A stretch of 12,419 nt of DNA from positions 1 through 12,419 of the forward strand of contig JAOTST010000005.1 of NCBI GenBank assembly GCA_029864785.1, given 5' to 3'. Made by a program: the position numbers and the translations under genes. The first letter of the stretch is position 1. Every line of letters begins with the position of its first letter. The notes under the pieces are model-generated. The model was not told the DNA's origin and did no database searches. It saw only the letters and a list, made by a program, of their open reading frames with translations. Source of the stretch: Chromatiales bacterium (GTDB taxonomy: Bacteria; Pseudomonadota; Gammaproteobacteria; Thiohalomonadales; Thiohalomonadaceae). Positions 115 to 11,507 of the stretch are shown here, piece by piece.

Positions 115-1182
115 CTAATCAGAATGCTTCGGTCGTTTATGTGCACGGGGATGTGCCCGGTCATAGACTTTAGCCAGATGCTGAAAATCGAGATGAGTAT
201 AGATCTGCGTAGTAGCAATATCGGCGTGTCCGAGTAATTCTTGAACGGCTCGCAGGTCACTGCTGGATTCAAGAATATGGCTGGCGAAGGAGTGGCGTAG
301 CATATGCGGGTGAACCGGTATATCAAGACCCTGGTGGGCGGCCCATTGCTTGATACGCAGCTGTATCGCTCGTGAAGAGAGGCGTTGGCCACGGTTTGAG
401 AGAAATAGTGCTTTTTCATCGCTCCCGCCATCCATGGCTCCCACGAAATTAGTACTTCCTTGTACGTCATCGCTCCCGCCATCCATGGCTCCTGCTAAAT
501 TAGTACTGCCCTGTACGTTACCGCTTCCACCATCCATTCCCTTCGTGAAGTTAGTATCGCCGTGTAGGCTACCTTTCTTGAGTAACTGATGACGAACAGC
601 CAACCAGCGATTAATGGCTTCGAGAGCCTTGGAGCCAACGGGAACAAGACGCTCCTTACTACCCTTGCCGATGACGGTAACCGAGGCCGATTGTTGATCG
701 ATACTATTAAGATTGAGAGAGACTAGTTCAGAGAGGCGCAAGCCGGATGAGTAGAAGAGCTCCATGATGGCGATATCTCTCAGAGAGAGGGGATCATTTT
801 GGTTAATTTTTAGTAACTGTTCAGTCTGTTCAATATCGAGGTTTTTGGGTAGGCGTTTATCACCTTTGGGCGCACGTACACCCTGTGCGGGATTATGATT
901 AAGTACATCTTGTGTAATTAGAAACCGAAAAAAACTGCGTAGAGCAGAAAGTTCGCGCTGCAGTGTTCTGCCGGAGACCCCCTGTTGATGACGCCATATT
1001 ACAAAATTACGAATTAGCGGATGTTTAAGTTGCCGCCAATGGAGAATATTACGCTCACCACAGAAACGGTTTAGTTGAGCAATATCTCGACGGTAATTAT
1101 TTATTGTATGAGGCGAGTAACGGCGCTGCTGTAGAAGCTGAGTTAGAAACTGCTCAACAAACTCTTCAGCGCCGCTTTCCAT
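115..1182 (-). CDS. xerC: Tyrosine recombinase XerC with an in-frame repeat insertion
   Basis: Site-specific recombinase that, with XerD, resolves chromosome dimers at dif near division. From the ATG at 1182 the protein has 355 residues; usual XerC is about 300. The N-terminal SAM-like core-binding domain (about 5-90) is followed by the catalytic domain. All catalytic residues are present: R149 (GLRLSEL), K173 (GKGSKER), H293 and R296 (HPHMLRHSF), H319 (LLGHA) and nucleophile Y328 (TTQIYTHLDF). The C-terminal FQHLAKVYDRAHPRA block is typical of XerC rather than XerD. Residues 206-256 are three 17-residue repeats placed between the ...WLAVRHQLLKKG helix and ALFLSNRGQ, a loop in normal XerC. 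An in-frame TTG at 1206 would add eight residues, but the ATG one base after the DUF484 stop, with GGAA upstream, is the better start. The enzyme is probably active; the effect of the insert is unknown. Confidence 0.93.
   Translation of the reverse strand: MESGAEEFVEQFLTQLLQQRRYSPHTINNYRRDIAQLNRFCGERNILHWRQLKHPLIRNFVIWRHQQGVSGRTLQRELSALRSFFRFLITQDVLNHNPAQGVRAPKGDKRLPKNLDIEQTEQLLKINQNDPLSLRDIAIMELFYSSGLRLSELVSLNLNSIDQQSASVTVIGKGSKERLVPVGSKALEAINRWLAVRHQLLKKGSLHGDTNFTKGMDGGSGNVQGSTNLAGAMDGGSDDVQGSTNFVGAMDGGSDEKALFLSNRGQRLSSRAIQLRIKQWAAHQGLDIPVHPHMLRHSFASHILESSSDLRAVQELLGHADIATTQIYTHLDFQHLAKVYDRAHPRAHKRPKHSD
415..567 (-). repeat. Three tandem 51-bp repeats inside xerC
   Basis: Three direct repeats with an exact 51-bp period: 567-517, 516-466 and 465-415 in gene order. 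They encode LHGDTNFTKGMDGGSGN, VQGSTNLAGAMDGGSDD and VQGSTNFVGAMDGGSDE. By eye, the last two copies agree at about 44 of 51 bases; the first matches the second at about 35 of 51. Each of the two better copies has the hairpin core GCCATGGATGGC (GCCAT/ATGGC arms; plus-strand 478-489 and 427-438) and the palindrome AGTACT. The period is a multiple of three and no copy contains an in-frame stop, so xerC stays open. From memory, tandem repeats with a CATGGATG hairpin core are common between genes in Gammaproteobacteria; this looks like such an element caught inside a gene. That link needs a genome search. Confidence 0.9.
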
Positions 1183-1183
1183 T

Positions 1184-1885
1184 TTAACGTTCCATGTGCG
1201 AGACAAAAATGGTATTGATTACAGCACCGAGATGGTTAATGAAGACGGTGCCCATGTCGGGTGAGAAGCGTGTGGGATCAACGCTACCAATAGCGAGCAT
1301 GCCTATAGGGCTGTTATTAAGACCATTGCCAGCTAGGGGGATAATTACAGCAGAGGCAATTTCTGAGGCGTGCTCTTCAAACAGAGCCTCTTTTTGTTCG
1401 TCGGTGAGTCGCCCACAAAAGCAGTTACATTTATCAAGAAGAGGCTTGAGTGATTTTAGGCTTGGAGCGTCAGGGTCAATAGCATTGGGTATTTTAAGCT
1501 CTCGATCATAGAGATGAATAATAACGGAGTCGGCATGAAAATCATCCAGGAGAGCGGAGCGCAGGTAACCTGTGGTCTGCTCCATACTGTCAGATTGAAT
1601 GAGCAGGACGATCAGATGCTGTAGGCGAGTAAGGAGCTGCTCATTATTTTGGGCGGTCTGATGGAGTATTTTTAGTTGTTGCTCAGTTCGGGTTTTTTCT
1701 TCACGGAGCACCCCCATCTGCCGCTCAACAAGTGAGATTGCAGAGCCGGTAGTAGGATGTGGGAGTTTGATCTCGGAAAGTAGGCCGCTATTGTTTAAGA
1801 AAAAATCAGGATGATCGCGCAGATAGGTAGCGACATCCTCTTCTTTTATAGTGGTCACACCTTCAGTCTTGGCAGTTTGGCTCAT
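1184..1885 (-). CDS. DUF484 family protein (GAF-like), between dapF and xerC
   Basis: Protein of 233 residues of the DUF484 family, a cytoplasmic GAF-like family of unknown biochemical role that is regularly encoded between dapF and xerC. Hallmarks visible: YLRDHPDFF at 21-29, the LPHPTTGSAISLVERQ block at 41-56, a helical, probably coiled-coil stretch at about 50-100 (LREEKTRTEQQLKILHQ), then an alpha/beta GAF-like part with SVIIHLYD and GMLAIGS. It has a CNCFC motif (C153, C155, C157) just before GRL. Only the last of these Cys, in CGRL, is one I recall as usual for the family. The ATG overlaps the dapF stop in ATGA, and the stop TAA is one base from the xerC ATG, so the three genes are probably translationally coupled. 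Family assignment is firm, function is not known. Confidence 0.88.
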   Translation of the reverse strand: MSQTAKTEGVTTIKEEDVATYLRDHPDFFLNNSGLLSEIKLPHPTTGSAISLVERQMGVLREEKTRTEQQLKILHQTAQNNEQLLTRLQHLIVLLIQSDSMEQTTGYLRSALLDDFHADSVIIHLYDRELKIPNAIDPDAPSLKSLKPLLDKCNCFCGRLTDEQKEALFEEHASEIASAVIIPLAGNGLNNSPIGMLAIGSVDPTRFSPDMGTVFINHLGAVINTIFVSHMER

Positions 1886-5591: not shown

Positions 5592-8500
5592 CTATAGTGT
5601 GTTTAGTAGCTCAAGAGCCATGACGCGATGTTTTTTCTTAATCGAGGGGTCAAGTTTTGTTGCTTTAATAAAGGCGGCCTTTGCTTTACCAATCTGTTTC
5701 AACGCCTTGTAGGTCTTTGCAAGGTTGATCCAGAGATGAGGATCTGCTGCATCACTCTCGGTTGCGGCAAGATAACTCTCGGTGGCCGCTTTAAGTTTCT
5801 CATCGATCACCAGCAAATTACCGCGATTGTTGAGGGCCGCAGCATTATTGGGCTCTACCTTGATGATCTTGTCAAAATATTTCATTGCCTCTTTACGATC
5901 CCCCGCTTTGGCGAAAATGATGCCCATCTGCAGAAGGGCATCCAGATCATTGGGATTCTCTTTTATAGTTTGTTGATAACGGCGAACCTTGGTTTGGGTA
6001 CCGATTTTAAGAATACTCATATATTCGCCAGGGAAGCTCTTCTCGATACTCGCTCTTGATATGGCTGAAGGACTCCAGGTGGATTGAGGTAGGCTAGCCG
6101 GTTTATAGGTGCGCCACGAATCTTGAATATTGAGAAGGCTAAGTCCCTTTCCCTTCCATTGATAGTAGTTTTGACTACCAAGCTCCCACGCCTTGAGGAA
6201 TGAGTTGCCTACCACGGTTGTTTCAATGGGGATCCAGAGCATCCCTTCGTGAATGACATACATATCATCCATGGTGTAACCATCACTATCCGCACGAATA
6301 CCGGTATTAAACATCATGAGCATATGTCCCGGCACTTCAATTACACGTGTCTCTACGCCGAGACTCTCAAGTGATGCGGTATAGAGGGCGACCAGATCAT
6401 CGCAATCCCCCGATTTGCGTTCAAGGGTTTCACGAGGATATTGAATATAGTCAACAAAGTCGGTCTTTCCAGAAGTTACTTGATAGGGATTAGTTGGATC
6501 TTGAATATAGGTGAGTCCAAGAACGCCAAGGGAGTTGAAGACGGCAGCAGCCCACTGTGCCTTTATTTTGGTCTCTTTAAATTGGGTTGCGACGGAACGT
6601 ACATAGTTGATTAACAGAGGGTCCTTTGGCGTAATGAATGATGCAAATCGATCGCGATCATCCCAGCTTAGGCGGTGTTTCTCATAGACATTAATCGTAT
6701 GATTTTTGCTAAAGCTCTTCTTTTCACCATTTTCAAAATAGGAGGCTGTCAGCTCAGTCTGCACGGGCGTATCTTCGGTGACATTGAGAATATTATTATT
6801 GAAGACGGCTTTAAGGGTGAGCTCCAGACTATCGCCGGGGGCGAGCTGATCGATTTGTGAACCTGTTGGGAAATCCATAAAGTCTTTCAAGGTGAAGCCA
6901 ACCTTGATGTTTTGCATGATGTCGCCGGTGTTATTGGTCAGTTTAATCCGGCCAATGCTATCTTGTTCATAGATTTTGTAGGTGTTGGAGAAGACATCTT
7001 TCATCTCCAAAATATCAATTTCCAGTGGAGTGGTGGTAGCCACTAGAGTTGTCGCTGTTGCGGCAACTTTTTTTGATTCAATGCCATCGCTGCTGATTGC
7101 AGTGACATAGAAAGTGTAATCATTTTCGGGGTCTAGCGAACCGACAATAAATTCAGGTAGGCTGCTTTCGCCAATTTTGGAGAAGCCTTCACCACTTTTT
7201 TTGTAGATAAGATAGCTGCTGGAGTAGCTCTCTTCAAGGGGGTTCCAGCGGAGCTTCACCTGCCAGGCAGAGGGATGGGCGATTAAATTCTCTACTTCAT
7301 GAGGGATGTATTTACGAGTTGAACTCGAAGCTACCTTTTTGAGTGTGCTCTCGTAACCTCGATTGGTTACCGTACTTACACGGTAGTAATAATCGTGATC
7401 TGCCTTGAGCCCTTTATCTATATATTGTGTTTTTTCAGTGCGGCCAATGGGCATAAACAGGCCGCTTTTGCTCTCTGCACGATAGAGTTGATAGTGATCG
7501 AAATAGGGAAGTTTAACCGGAGACCAGCGCACCTCAACAGCATGCATACCACCTTTGGTTGTGAGATTCTGTATGGCCGGTGGCTTATGCAGTGTAGTAA
7601 AGCGCTGTATACGCTTATTACCTGAATCCGCTATGGCAAAGGTAAAGGAGTCTTTGGCTGAGATAGACGTGGGTTGATTAAATTGGCCTATTCCTTTGCC
7701 AGTTACGCCCCATGAACGTAAAAAACCACCCGTTTTGTTATAGACCTTAACTTGGTTTTGATCGAGAAGAAGCACTTCATTATGAGTTGCTATTAAATCG
7801 GTGGGGTTGGAGAAATTTCCTGGGGCATCGCTTTTTTTGCTTTTAGCAAAATTTGACTTGGGTTCTCCTTTCGCGCTAAAGATTGAGATAGTACTGTTAC
7901 CGCGATCAAGCACATAGAGGTTATCCATGGGGTCAAGAGCAATTGCGGATGGGTCTTGTAGCTTAATTTCAGGATTGATTGTGTCTCGTATTACGTTAAG
8001 GAAAATCCCTTCACTATTAAAGACCTGTATCCAGCTATTTCCGCGGTCAGCGACAAAGATGAGACCTGCCGATGATATGGCAATATCGACGGGCTCATCA
8101 AACATTCCAGCGCCGCTGCCGGAGGTGCCGAAGCTCGAGATGATTTCGCCTGAATTAGAGAGCTTTACAACTCTCTTTTTCTCTCTATCAATAAGCAGCA
8201 TGCTGCTGTCGGGATAGATCGCGATGGCAACGGGGTCGAGCCCCTTAATTTTAATTTCGTTGGTAACGGTACCGTTCTCTATTTTGAGAATAGAGTGCTT
8301 ATCTGGGTTGATTGCGAAAATGGTCTCTTTACCATTCCAGGCAAATTTAGTGATCTTGGTTTTGGTTTCACCCAACCACTCTATTGAGGTAGGGGTTGCT
8401 TGCCGCTGCCACTGCTGTAGTGGTTCGCCCGTTTCGGTTGAGAAGAGGTGAATGCTATTTGCCTTGGAGTCACCAACAAAAACCTTCTTTTTTCCATCGA

Positions 8501-9356
8501 TGGCTAAACCTGACATGCTCATAAATTGAGCGCGCCCTTTTCCCTTGGAACCAAAGGTGGAGTCGAGCCGAAAATCAAAGTTGTATTTGTTGATCGTATA
8601 GCTGGCGATATTGGCTACGAAGATGCCGCTCTCTGAGATGTTGATCGCAATGGGTTCGCCACTGTTAGGCAACTTGTTGATATATTGGCCACTCTGAGAA
8701 TAGATTTTGACCAGAGAGTCATCTTTATCCAGCACATAGATTCGTCCTAGAGCATCGAGCTCGATATCAATAGGCTCATCCAATTGGAAGGGAATCTTGC
8801 TCTTCTCTGCGACTTTCTGGTTGTGTTTGTTCTCGTTAATATCGAGTACCGTGAGAAAGACACCATTAATCCCGTAGAGTTGAATACGGCTGTTACCGCT
8901 ATCGGCAACGTAGACGATACCGTCATAGATGGCTATTCCGTGTGGATTGTTTAACTGCATATCCCCGCCTCTGCCACCGAAGGTTCCCTTAAGCTCACCG
9001 TTGCGACTGAACATAGCGACCAGTTCGGTCTCACTATCAACGACATAGATGGTCTCTTTAAAGAGGGCGATGGCCTCAGGCTGTTCGAGAATGCGCTCAC
9101 CACGGCTGTTTTTCGATGGTAGCGTTGCTAATTTCCGACCATTTTTATCCAGAACTTCAACGGAGCCATCTTCCTGTGCCACATAGAATCTATTTTCACT
9201 CCAGTGGAGTAACTTGACGCCCTTTCCCATAGGAACATCACTGATAAAGTCAACATTGGCGAGAGATGATGATGGTGGTAACTCTGGGGTACCCGCACAG
9301 GCGAAGAGGAACAGGGTCAAGATGGTGATGAGGATTTTATGCATTGGAAATATCAT
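5592..9356 (-). CDS. Giant lipoprotein: NHL propeller, Fn3, transglutaminase-like, TPR
   Basis: Protein of 1254 residues, envelope-anchored by a lipobox (LFAC, Cys20). M5 is an equally possible start and gives a compact lipoprotein signal; no ribosome binding site decides. Residues about 40-590 are NHL/beta-propeller repeats with recurring blocks such as NPHGIAIYDGIVYVADSGNS, EPVDIAISSAGLIFVADRGN and QPTSISAKD, enough for more than one propeller. Two Fn3-like domains follow (about 592-680 and 685-772), then a beta-sandwich-like region (775-890). A transglutaminase-like domain (about 900-1060) carries C985 in KSGDCDD, H1011 in PGHMLMMF and E1045 in WIPIETT; Glu stands where the family usually has Asp. 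TPRs occupy about 1125-1240. The domain set suggests scaffold and cysteine peptidase or transferase activity in the periplasm or at the outer membrane. The substrate is unknown. The small exported protein follows directly. Confidence 0.9.
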   Translation of the reverse strand: MIFPMHKILITILTLFLFACAGTPELPPSSSLANVDFISDVPMGKGVKLLHWSENRFYVAQEDGSVEVLDKNGRKLATLPSKNSRGERILEQPEAIALFKETIYVVDSETELVAMFSRNGELKGTFGGRGGDMQLNNPHGIAIYDGIVYVADSGNSRIQLYGINGVFLTVLDINENKHNQKVAEKSKIPFQLDEPIDIELDALGRIYVLDKDDSLVKIYSQSGQYINKLPNSGEPIAINISESGIFVANIASYTINKYNFDFRLDSTFGSKGKGRAQFMSMSGLAIDGKKKVFVGDSKANSIHLFSTETGEPLQQWQRQATPTSIEWLGETKTKITKFAWNGKETIFAINPDKHSILKIENGTVTNEIKIKGLDPVAIAIYPDSSMLLIDREKKRVVKLSNSGEIISSFGTSGSGAGMFDEPVDIAISSAGLIFVADRGNSWIQVFNSEGIFLNVIRDTINPEIKLQDPSAIALDPMDNLYVLDRGNSTISIFSAKGEPKSNFAKSKKSDAPGNFSNPTDLIATHNEVLLLDQNQVKVYNKTGGFLRSWGVTGKGIGQFNQPTSISAKDSFTFAIADSGNKRIQRFTTLHKPPAIQNLTTKGGMHAVEVRWSPVKLPYFDHYQLYRAESKSGLFMPIGRTEKTQYIDKGLKADHDYYYRVSTVTNRGYESTLKKVASSSTRKYIPHEVENLIAHPSAWQVKLRWNPLEESYSSSYLIYKKSGEGFSKIGESSLPEFIVGSLDPENDYTFYVTAISSDGIESKKVAATATTLVATTTPLEIDILEMKDVFSNTYKIYEQDSIGRIKLTNNTGDIMQNIKVGFTLKDFMDFPTGSQIDQLAPGDSLELTLKAVFNNNILNVTEDTPVQTELTASYFENGEKKSFSKNHTINVYEKHRLSWDDRDRFASFITPKDPLLINYVRSVATQFKETKIKAQWAAAVFNSLGVLGLTYIQDPTNPYQVTSGKTDFVDYIQYPRETLERKSGDCDDLVALYTASLESLGVETRVIEVPGHMLMMFNTGIRADSDGYTMDDMYVIHEGMLWIPIETTVVGNSFLKAWELGSQNYYQWKGKGLSLLNIQDSWRTYKPASLPQSTWSPSAISRASIEKSFPGEYMSILKIGTQTKVRRYQQTIKENPNDLDALLQMGIIFAKAGDRKEAMKYFDKIIKVEPNNAAALNNRGNLLVIDEKLKAATESYLAATESDAADPHLWINLAKTYKALKQIGKAKAAFIKATKLDPSIKKKHRVMALELLNTL

Positions 9357-9464: not shown

Positions 9465-11507
9465 CTATTTACTCTCCCGATCGTAGACACCATCCCACTC
9501 TGGAGGGGGTGAATTGTCGATAAAGAAGTCGCAGCGTTTGATATAGATCTGACATGGCTTGTCATCGGGGAGCATTTCGCGAAGGGAGAGAAAAAGCATC
9601 CTGGCGGCTAGCCACTTTTGAGCGCGGTAGAGTTGTAAGGCTCTTTGGAACTGCCTGATCTCCTCTTCGGTAATCTCTGACAGGGGGTCGATTAGCTCAT
9701 AGATCGTGACGGGGATCTGCTTACCAATGACACGAATCTGATCGAGTTCGCGGTAGATAAATTTGTCACAAGTCAGTTGGTAGGTGTTGTCGGAGACCAG
9801 AAAATCGACACCATAATATTTGGCGGTGCTCTCAAGCCTTGCTGCGAGGTTAACGGTGTCGCCAATAACGGTGTACTCCAACTTTTTACCACGGGAACCA
9901 ATATTACCGGCAATGACTTCACCACTATTGATACCACCCCTAAAAGAGAAGGGCTCCTCACCACTCTTCTCCCATTTTCTACATAGTTCATTAAGGGCCT
10001 GTTTCATCCCCAGCAGAGCCCCAACGGCACGTTTAGCATGGTCTGGCTGAGCAAGTGGTGCGCCCCAGTAGATCATAATGCCATCGCCAATGAATTTGTC
10101 GACGGTGCCGTCATAGTTGGTAATTACCTGCACCATCGCAGCCAGATACTCATTAAGTCGGCCGACCACCTCAAGTGGTGTGCGGCTTTCGGTAAAAGAG
10201 GTAAAGCCCTTAATGTCGGTGAAGATGATAGAGATCTCTTTACTATCTCCTCCGATTCTGGCGGCATCCGGGTCGCGTTCCAGTCGTGAGACCAATTTGG
10301 GAGAGAGATAGCTAGAGAACATGGAACGCATCTCACGAGCTCTGCGCTCAAGAATCAGATAACGGAAACTGCCGCCTACCAGCAATGATGCGACAGCGGC
10401 AATAAGTGGGTAGATCATACTGACCCAGTGCCCTTCAGTGAATAGCTGGTAGGTGAGCCAGATATATCCTGTAGAGAGAATAAAGGTGACGGGGATGGCA
10501 CTGTAGAGTTTTAGACGTGCGGTGAGGTAGAAGGTTAAAAGCCCTAGCAGCAAAATAAATGAGATATCGATCAGAGCCTCAAAACCGGCCTGTCTGATAA
10601 AGCGACCGCTAATGATATTGTCGGCAATGGTCGCGTGGATCTCTACCCCAGGGGTGTTGCTATGAAAGGGGGTGACGCGCATGTCGTAGATGCCGAGGGC
10701 GGTCGCGCCCAGAAAAAGAATTTTATCTTTTAGCAGAGCAGGGTCGATCCGCCCAGCAGCGATATCACTAAAAGAGTATTGCGGATAGCTACCGGTAGGG
10801 CCGGTATAGTTAATCCACATGGTGTAACTTGCATCGACAGGAATGCTGTGACCTGCCAGCTCAATTGAAAACGGTTTTGGTGTGAGCGTCATATCATTGA
10901 GGGCAACCATCGCTCCCATCAATCCCAGTGAAGGCATGAGCTGATCTTTCTCTTTGATCAGTAGCATACTGCGGCGGTTAATGCCGTCCTCATCGGGGAA
11001 AAAATTGATGTGACCGATACCCATTGCGCTCTTTTCTATGGTGGGTAATGAGCGGGTGGTGCCAACGACTTGAAATTGCCGATTAAAGTCAAAGACAGTG
11101 GCAAGAATGATATTTCCAGCCTGGCTAATGGCCTTAGAGAAGGCCTGATCGGTTGCTTCGTTTTCAGATTCGGGGAAGAAGGCATCGAACAGAACAGCCT
11201 TTGCACCGGCGGCGGATAGATTCTCAATCAGGGGAATATAGTGGCGGCGGCTCCATGGAAAACGCCCAAGCTCGGCGATGCTCTTGTCATCAATGGCGAT
11301 AATGGCAATCTGTTTATTGGGAGGAATCGCACCTCGGATATTCTTAAAACGCAGGTCATAGCTCTTAGCTTCAAAGGCCTCAATGAAGGGATTTTGATTG
11401 TAATAGAGGGCAACAACCGTAAAGGAGGTGATCAAGGCCAACAGAATTGAGACGATAGCCGACCGTCTATTTAAGAATTGGGTGGTCAGTTCTGATGGTG
11501 AGGCCAT
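9465..11507 (-). CDS. CHASE2-domain membrane adenylate cyclase (class III)
   Basis: Inner-membrane enzyme of 680 residues predicted to make cAMP in response to a periplasmic signal. A first membrane helix (about 16-36) is followed by a CHASE2 sensor (about 45-305; motif IAIIAIDDKSIAELGRFPWS, then KAVLFDAFFPE) and three membrane helices (about 312-330, 336-354, 362-384). The cyclase domain (about 420-605) has metal Asp D431 (IIFTDIKGFT) and D475 (FIGDGIMIYWG). K471 (VDKFIGD) and T546 (EYTVIGD) fit the Lys/Thr base-selecting pair of class IIIb adenylate cyclases rather than the Glu/Cys pair of guanylate cyclases. N553 and R557 (DTVNLAARLE) complete the site. The C-terminus (FQRALQLYRAQKW to PPPEWDGVYDRESK) is the tail usually seen in CHASE2 cyclases. 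GGAA precedes the ATG. cAMP as product is inferred from these residues. Confidence 0.93.
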   Translation of the reverse strand: MASPSELTTQFLNRRSAIVSILLALITSFTVVALYYNQNPFIEAFEAKSYDLRFKNIRGAIPPNKQIAIIAIDDKSIAELGRFPWSRRHYIPLIENLSAAGAKAVLFDAFFPESENEATDQAFSKAISQAGNIILATVFDFNRQFQVVGTTRSLPTIEKSAMGIGHINFFPDEDGINRRSMLLIKEKDQLMPSLGLMGAMVALNDMTLTPKPFSIELAGHSIPVDASYTMWINYTGPTGSYPQYSFSDIAAGRIDPALLKDKILFLGATALGIYDMRVTPFHSNTPGVEIHATIADNIISGRFIRQAGFEALIDISFILLLGLLTFYLTARLKLYSAIPVTFILSTGYIWLTYQLFTEGHWVSMIYPLIAAVASLLVGGSFRYLILERRAREMRSMFSSYLSPKLVSRLERDPDAARIGGDSKEISIIFTDIKGFTSFTESRTPLEVVGRLNEYLAAMVQVITNYDGTVDKFIGDGIMIYWGAPLAQPDHAKRAVGALLGMKQALNELCRKWEKSGEEPFSFRGGINSGEVIAGNIGSRGKKLEYTVIGDTVNLAARLESTAKYYGVDFLVSDNTYQLTCDKFIYRELDQIRVIGKQIPVTIYELIDPLSEITEEEIRQFQRALQLYRAQKWLAARMLFLSLREMLPDDKPCQIYIKRCDFFIDNSPPPEWDGVYDRESK

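Follow-up and report, generated by a model that had tools for sequence, protein, structure and literature searches.

The window, by which we mean the whole stretch of 12,419 nucleotides of DNA that was analysed, carries on its minus strand a xerC gene with a 51-residue insert encoded by three tandem units of 51 bp (Table 1). The xerC open reading frame scores 361.7 bits against the TIGR02224 equivalog profile, for which the cut-off is 335.15. It opens at a TTG codon at 1206, and the ATG at 1182–1180 was judged by eye to be the likelier start. In a 35-row alignment the catalytic residues R157, K181, H301, R304, H327 and Y336 occupy invariant columns, and the nearest named xerC loci share 49–51% identity with the gene, which suggests a gammaproteobacterial host. 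We found no close xerC orthologue in G001, a genome of the same genus, where the best match is XerD-like, with 36% identity in the N-terminal part and 44% in the C-terminal part. Beside xerC there are a gene with a below-cut-off match to PRK10963 and dapF. Two further proteins encoded in the window are one of 1254 aa (5592–9356), which has matches of ScyF/NHL-like and TPR type, and one of 680 aa (9465–11507), which weakly matches a TOMM kinase/cyclase fusion.

The bounds of the insert were set by the homologue in genome G003. Since the matches to query residues 6–210 and 262–360 stand side by side on the G003 contig, the insert in XerC amounts to 51 residues. It belongs to a loop of the catalytic domain that measures 65 residues from W202 to A265, versus 11–20 residues in 109 other Xer loci. 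These loci comprise the best 80 of at least 594 candidates from a contig search and 29 from a genome search, each represented by its best Xer homologue; when they were aligned, the insert was found in none of the 109, and not even a single unit was present in any of them. In an AlphaFold model of XerC, residues 215–260 form the longest low-confidence stretch, with pLDDT near 30, and the loop is therefore predicted to be disordered; the model rests on a shallow set of 35 sequences and is also unsure at 324–335, which is a conserved part. The best Foldseek match of the model is XerD (1a0p), with a poor superposition (TM 0.42 by query).

A 51-bp period was detected at 416–537 and at 416–568, using TRF and a second repeat search. 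The unit bounds adopted here, 418–570, follow the register of the dispersed family described below, and all three units lie on the minus strand. When folded as RNA, units C and B form two hairpins, although the fold of unit B is no better than those of shuffled sequences (z −0.84), and unit A does not form the two-hairpin fold. Folding the xerC array as DNA gave a stability no greater than that of shuffled sequences (z 0.39).

Most of what an earlier note had read from this DNA held up at the locus. It described three 51-bp tandem units that add 51 residues, and the adjacent flanks in G003 and the lengthened loop bear this out. The six catalytic residues are retained as it had said, the units are in frame and leave the gene open, and two of the units are more alike than the third. 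Its span for the array, 415–567, is correct within the freedom of register, and the disordered loop that it proposed to look for is predicted by the model.

Table 1. Features of the xerC gene and its repeat array, in positions of the window.
Feature	Position	Strand	Evidence or remark
xerC with 51-residue insert	115..1206	minus	TIGR02224 above cut-off in two stretches; six catalytic residues invariant
51 extra XerC residues (211–261)	424..576	minus	bounds set by homologue in G003
Unit C, peptide DVQGSTNFVGAMDGGSD	418..468	minus	found by models R1 and R2, neither trained on it
Unit B, peptide NVQGSTNLAGAMDGGSD	469..519	minus	45/51 bases same as unit C
Unit A, most diverged	520..570	minus	33/51 bases same as unit C, 34/51 same as unit B
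Hairpin 1 of unit C, GTAC-AAGGAA-GTAC, GGA in loop	452..465	minus	unit fold; covariation of this helix across the 18 intergenic copies
Hairpin 2 of unit C, two-part stem around GCC-ATGGAT-GGC, GGA in loop	418..446	minus	unit fold; helices covary in 18 intergenic copies

Kinship with a dispersed intergenic repeat family

When the 154-bp xerC array was used as a BLAST query against its own genome, the search returned one 22-bp match outside xerC (E 0.012) and three further, weaker matches (E 0.5–3.3). The 22-bp match falls in an intergenic hairpin repeat that has further copies, and the kinship became clear using an intergenic copy as the query and then covariance models, of which R1 was built from 6 and R2 from 18 intergenic copies of the same genome. 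Unit C was found by R1 with 36.2 bits (genome-wide E 2.2e-6) and by R2 with 38.8 bits (genome-wide E 5.3e-8). Unit B scored 19.0 bits with R1 and 17.6 bits with R2, for genome-wide E values of only 0.07–0.08, and unit A alone had no match with either model. A core pattern allowing at most 2 mismatches occurs at 8 places in the genome, two of them in xerC, and the reversed pattern occurs at none. The xerC unit belongs to a repeat family that is dispersed between the genes of this genome.

Alternatively, a piece of xerC could simply have been duplicated in tandem and resemble intergenic sequence by coincidence; this would fit units that stand head to tail and a direct BLAST search that found nothing outside xerC better than the 22-bp match. 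This reading is nearly refuted, as models made from intergenic copies only find unit C at E values of 2e-6 to 5e-8, and none of the 109 other loci has even one unit. The likeness to dispersed intergenic repeats that the earlier note had proposed is thus upheld by R2, and the presence of the family elsewhere in the genome, together with the absence of the insert from the other Xer loci, favours the note over an ordinary protein domain. The hairpin core that it singled out, GCCATGGATGGC, occurs in units B and C but not in unit A.

In its own genome R2 gave 28 matches at E ≤ 1e-3, of which 18 are its training copies. Three matches lie in genes, namely xerC, thiL (E 5.7e-7) and tgt (E 5.3e-4), the last two also being copies on which R2 was not trained, and for the remaining 25 no recognisable gene covers the match in the stretches inspected. 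In thiL (L135, C67:9599-9687) about two units run the other way round, placed between RYF near the N terminus and the VLGIGDD motif. A terminator T-run is the start point of 11 of the 21 intergenic copies examined; such starts may reflect an insertion preference or a function at transcript ends. Some copies are nested in the apical loop of an inverted copy. In two clear cases the joined flanks match an intact copy at 34/36 and 32/36 bases, and in two more at 27/36 and 26/36; three others that appear nested by eye match at 21–22/36, within the background of 16–22 of this ungapped test. Tandem growth also occurs between genes, with three intergenic copies at C93:1549-1745 (L143) that have a period near 50 bp, the third being disrupted. 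When 11 loci of this genome were compared with Rfam, only a tRNA reached its gathering score, and the best matches on the element itself were to Bacillaceae-1, at 22–25 bits versus the required 35.

Searching more widely with R2 at E ≤ 1e-3, we found the element in 32 of 95 genomes, its own included, and in 16 of the 20 genomes of its own family. A third model, R3, built from eight copies of which six are in-gene, was used to scan 36 genomes, namely the family's 20 plus 16 further ones that were positive with R2. R3 matched 32 of the 36, and the four without a match are the family members that R2 missed too. As a negative control, the xerC neighbourhoods of 80 other genomes, 508,263 bases in all, gave neither R2 nor R3 a match at E ≤ 0.01. 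An 81-base leuS copy from genome G011, used as a query, matched neither phage nor E. coli sequences; it gave three 29-base matches to Methylobacterium plasmids (E 0.2).

Base pairing and GGA loops of the element

In the 18 intergenic copies, 94.4% of the cells in the aligned stems pair, and changes on both sides were found in 10 of the 14 pairs. Double-changed cells number 45, versus 11.2 in shuffles, and the excess is lost when the partners are slid by 1–3 columns. The same was seen in 35 in-gene copies, ten or more of which come from unnamed reading frames and one of which is read in a second frame: 92.7% of cells pair, and 38 are double-changed versus 13.0 in shuffles. Related copies inflate counts of this kind, and the slid controls still stay below them. 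Stems are 3–5 bp long in both sets. At pair 23-49 the in-gene copies have C-G in 19 cases and T-A in 14, and since this switch flips the frame 0 peptide between Ala..Ala and Val..Thr, both residues change jointly. Base pairs in the in-gene copies therefore covary even at the cost of an amino acid change.

All 18 intergenic copies have the triplet GGA in the hairpin 1 loop and 17 of the 18 have it in the hairpin 2 loop; among the 35 in-gene copies it is kept in each loop in 34. Non-standard cells in the intergenic set include 13 G-T and 4 A-C, which weakly fit a functional strand that carries GGA. CsrA selects by SELEX the consensus RUACARGGAUGU, with GGA in hairpin loops (PMC4347634), and the element resembles such targets in both loop position and context. 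The element could accordingly be a mobile RNA module that is bound at its two GGA-loop hairpins by CsrA/RsmA or by some other protein with affinity for GGA, its copies in mRNAs acting as regulatory sites or sponges. Unit C matches the consensus at 11 of 12 bases, unit B at 10 and unit A at 7; the mean number of matches is 9.28 in intergenic and 9.91 in in-gene copies, versus 7.34 and 7.13 in base shuffles, and the GGA strand is the mRNA strand at 29 of 30 in-gene sites. Against this, thiL carries the opposite strand, and the GGA loops may serve a DNA-level enzyme instead. A CsrA (PF02599) match was found in 78 of the 95 genomes. Unlike the hosts of CsrA/RsmA targets, the element's own genome (G000) and G001, incomplete drafts at 82% and 92%, have no such match, and both carry copies at E ≤ 1e-3 (27 and 13, respectively, in the search of the 95 genomes). 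Over the 95 genomes the association between CsrA and the element is not significant (29/3 versus 49/14, Fisher P 0.16). We therefore regard the binding of CsrA or a similar protein as improbable, and give equally little credence to the broader form of the idea, a mobile RNA-binding module of 51 bp that combines two CsrA-type GGA hairpins with an open 17-codon frame under RNA-level selection. If it were true, one and the same element would supply the mRNAs of housekeeping genes with a pair of regulatory hairpins and their proteins with a linker that does no harm.

Copies inside genes, with filled and empty sites

To survey in-gene copies, 40 regions around the listed R3 matches were taken, 63 loci were re-scored and all 84 resulting matches were examined for open frames; 21 of the 84, examined apart from the first 63, added no named gene. 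Among the listed R3 matches together with xerC, thiL and tgt, we found at least 30 in-frame sites in 16 gene families and 14 genomes, of which 26 share one reading frame (D-x-Q-G...), 3 use another sense frame and 1 is antisense; since R3 was partly trained on in-gene copies, neither this count nor the 26/30 excess of one frame is an unbiased sample. The sites lie in valS (7), metH (4), leuS (3), tgt (3) and guaA (2), with one each in rhlE, pcnB, rep, gcvT, pepA, hom, dnaG, hsdR, hsdS, xerC and thiL. The valS and leuS genes of genome G016 (L266, L274) were named by alignment to its congener. Sites were counted per genome and are not independent events, as five are common to two genomes each: one in valS and one in leuS (G011 and G016), one in tgt (G007 and G015), one in metH (G041 and G083) and one in guaA (G007 and G052). 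The place in metH is the same in G083 and G041 (L245, L253), and that in guaA in G052 and G007 (L298, L302), each pair being genomes of different families; these cross-family sites may be hot spots, old insertions or the result of gene transfer.

Measured against the first-listed profile, metH (all 4), rhlE, dnaG, gcvT and rep are 16–18 residues too long. The gcvT product exceeds one profile by 18 residues and another by 9, and the leuS product of G011, although it has two units, exceeds its profile by just 6. The inserts in hsdR and hsdS fall outside the matched stretch of the profile and that in pcnB at its edge, and we therefore treat these as weaker cases. Rhs-like and unnamed reading frames at ten loci (L236, L250, L270, L275, L277, L278, L279, L290, L292 and L304) were left out of the 30, since their inserts are covered by no named family. 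The ispE gene of G040, a candidate antisense case, was dropped because it is only 1 residue over its profile. At two of the unnamed loci, L279 at the start of contig C49 and L290 at the end of C58 in G007, the contigs end within tandem units of what is seemingly one gene. Tandem arrays may break assemblies, and would hence be under-counted.

Comparison of genomes revealed filled and empty sites for several of these genes. The 17-residue insert in tgt of the window's genome is absent from PDB 10fb/10fa and from G001 of the same genus. In G015, tgt carries a single unit of 17 residues, its peptide being of the same type, at a site other than that in the window's genome, and tgt of G007 has two tandem units at the G015 site, such that the unit number in tgt is 0, 1 or 2 among genomes. 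Eighteen of 19 aligned tgt relatives have neither insert, and the nineteenth is G015. Between the congeners G011 and G016, whose aligned identity is 89% in valS and 95% in leuS, valS has a clean 51-bp insert in G016 that is missing from G011, and leuS has a unit in G011 that is missing from G016; at another leuS site the unit numbers are 1 and 2 between these two genomes. Both leuS gaps measure 54 as aligned, which we attribute to 51 bases and three adjoining ones; the valS alignment contains a further gap, of 45 bp, that is unrelated. A pyrimidine precedes the insert in 32 of the 35 listed cases, and at most one base is seemingly duplicated at insertion. A core of 50 bp plus one such base may account for the gain of 51, a multiple of three. 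With congeneric filled and empty sites and differences in unit number, the movement of the element and its limits can be tested by genome comparison and laboratory assays.

These copies bear on the question of whether the insert serves XerC. A domesticated linker could give the protein a new property, such as an altered contact with XerD or FtsK, and the gene is indeed intact and kept in frame, with the loop placed in the catalytic domain. We consider this very unlikely: the same peptide type sits in unrelated enzymes, the insert is common to 0/109 other loci and is predicted to be disordered, and the in-gene copies obey base pairing where the protein changes thereby. The data fit toleration better than the word 'domesticated' that the earlier note had used, with no sign of a function for the protein, and the XerC of the window is probably active and its insert probably neutral.

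Origin of the insert and known systems

We conclude that the xerC repeat is very probably a copy of a small dispersed two-hairpin element, a tolerated passenger that has been locally expanded. A selfish or neutral hairpin element with a core of about 50 bp and a net gain of 51 bp would be spreading in these genomes, mostly between genes, often directly after terminators and sometimes nested in another copy. Landings inside genes would be rare, and copies there would survive because they add 17 stop-free codons at tolerant sites. One copy would have entered xerC at the loop that separates the Lys hairpin from the HxxR motif, later growing to three units by tandem duplication, through slippage or unequal exchange between units, while xerC stayed functional with the insert as a passenger. 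The hairpins would presumably drive both spread and duplication.

No mobiliser of the element was found: the single Y1_Tnp match in its own genome is a RAYT, and the 2.7 kb locus of that gene holds no R1 copy. Both sides of the RAYT gene (L166, contig C250) carry GGTCGGAGTCAAA and its complement, as seen by eye. This RAYT scores above the NF047646 cut-off, and the element is small, palindromic and both intergenic and intragenic; on these grounds the element could be a REP, of either the GTAG or the CGTC superfamily, with the tyrosine transposase as its mover. REPs are described in PMC3733652 (Di Nocera 2013) as occurring singly, as dimers or grouped, and inside genes that include those for tRNA synthetases and helicases, types in which the present element is likewise found. 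The same account gives GTAG REPs an unpaired terminal GTAG in >90% of the members of most families; in contrast, GTAG on either strand is found in 7/18 intergenic and 1/35 in-gene copies of the element, and where the aligned intergenic copies have it, it belongs to hairpin 1. CGTC repeats, for which no transposase is known according to that account, have stems of 8–9 bp and loops of 4–5, versus the 3–5 bp stems seen here. GACG, the complement of CGTC, starts 21/35 in-gene copies, which speaks for this kinship, yet it starts only 4/18 intergenic copies; CGTC at either end is found in 22/35 of the in-gene copies, this count covering CGTC only, with the variants TGTC and CCTC left out. Unlike REPs as there described, the element is a fixed two-hairpin module that forms head-to-tail arrays of 51-bp period inside genes, and unlike in REP/RAYT systems the RAYT gene is flanked by what appears by eye to be a different repeat. 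We therefore think it unlikely that the element is a REP moved by RAYT, and retain the tolerated two-hairpin passenger as the explanation of the xerC repeat.

Protein-coding palindromes are best known from Rickettsia. The RPEs of that genus are small palindromic elements found between genes and in frame in conserved genes, where their products are tolerated (Ogata 2000, 2002, cited in PMC2229807). Like them, the present element has inserted in frame in many unrelated conserved genes. The description of RPEs in PMC2229807, in which they measure 105–146 bp, form a long stem-loop with terminal inverted repeats and are Rickettsia-specific, sets them apart from a 51-bp element outside Rickettsia that has two short GGA-loop hairpins and grows in tandem by 51-bp steps. 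The enterobacterial repeats RU-1/ERIC, RU-2 and RU-3 are also small and mobile, with open frames that are fused in frame to genes, as described in PMC2229807 (see also PMC2759123); at 103–168 bp they are longer than the element, a comparison made by description and not by sequence. We did not recognise the element among the papers listed by searches of the open-licence PMC literature, in which fragments of its peptide and DNA matched no paper.

An in-frame element with its own pairing rules thus recurs, in no fewer than 14 genomes, in enzymes as different as tRNA synthetases, a primase, a recombinase and a queuine enzyme, which is a warning that insertions of 17 residues in these enzymes derive from the element and are not domains. 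Since a defining feature of RPEs and one of REPs are each absent from it, we file the element as like these systems and as a member of neither; by analogy, it appears to work as RPEs and intragenic REPs do.
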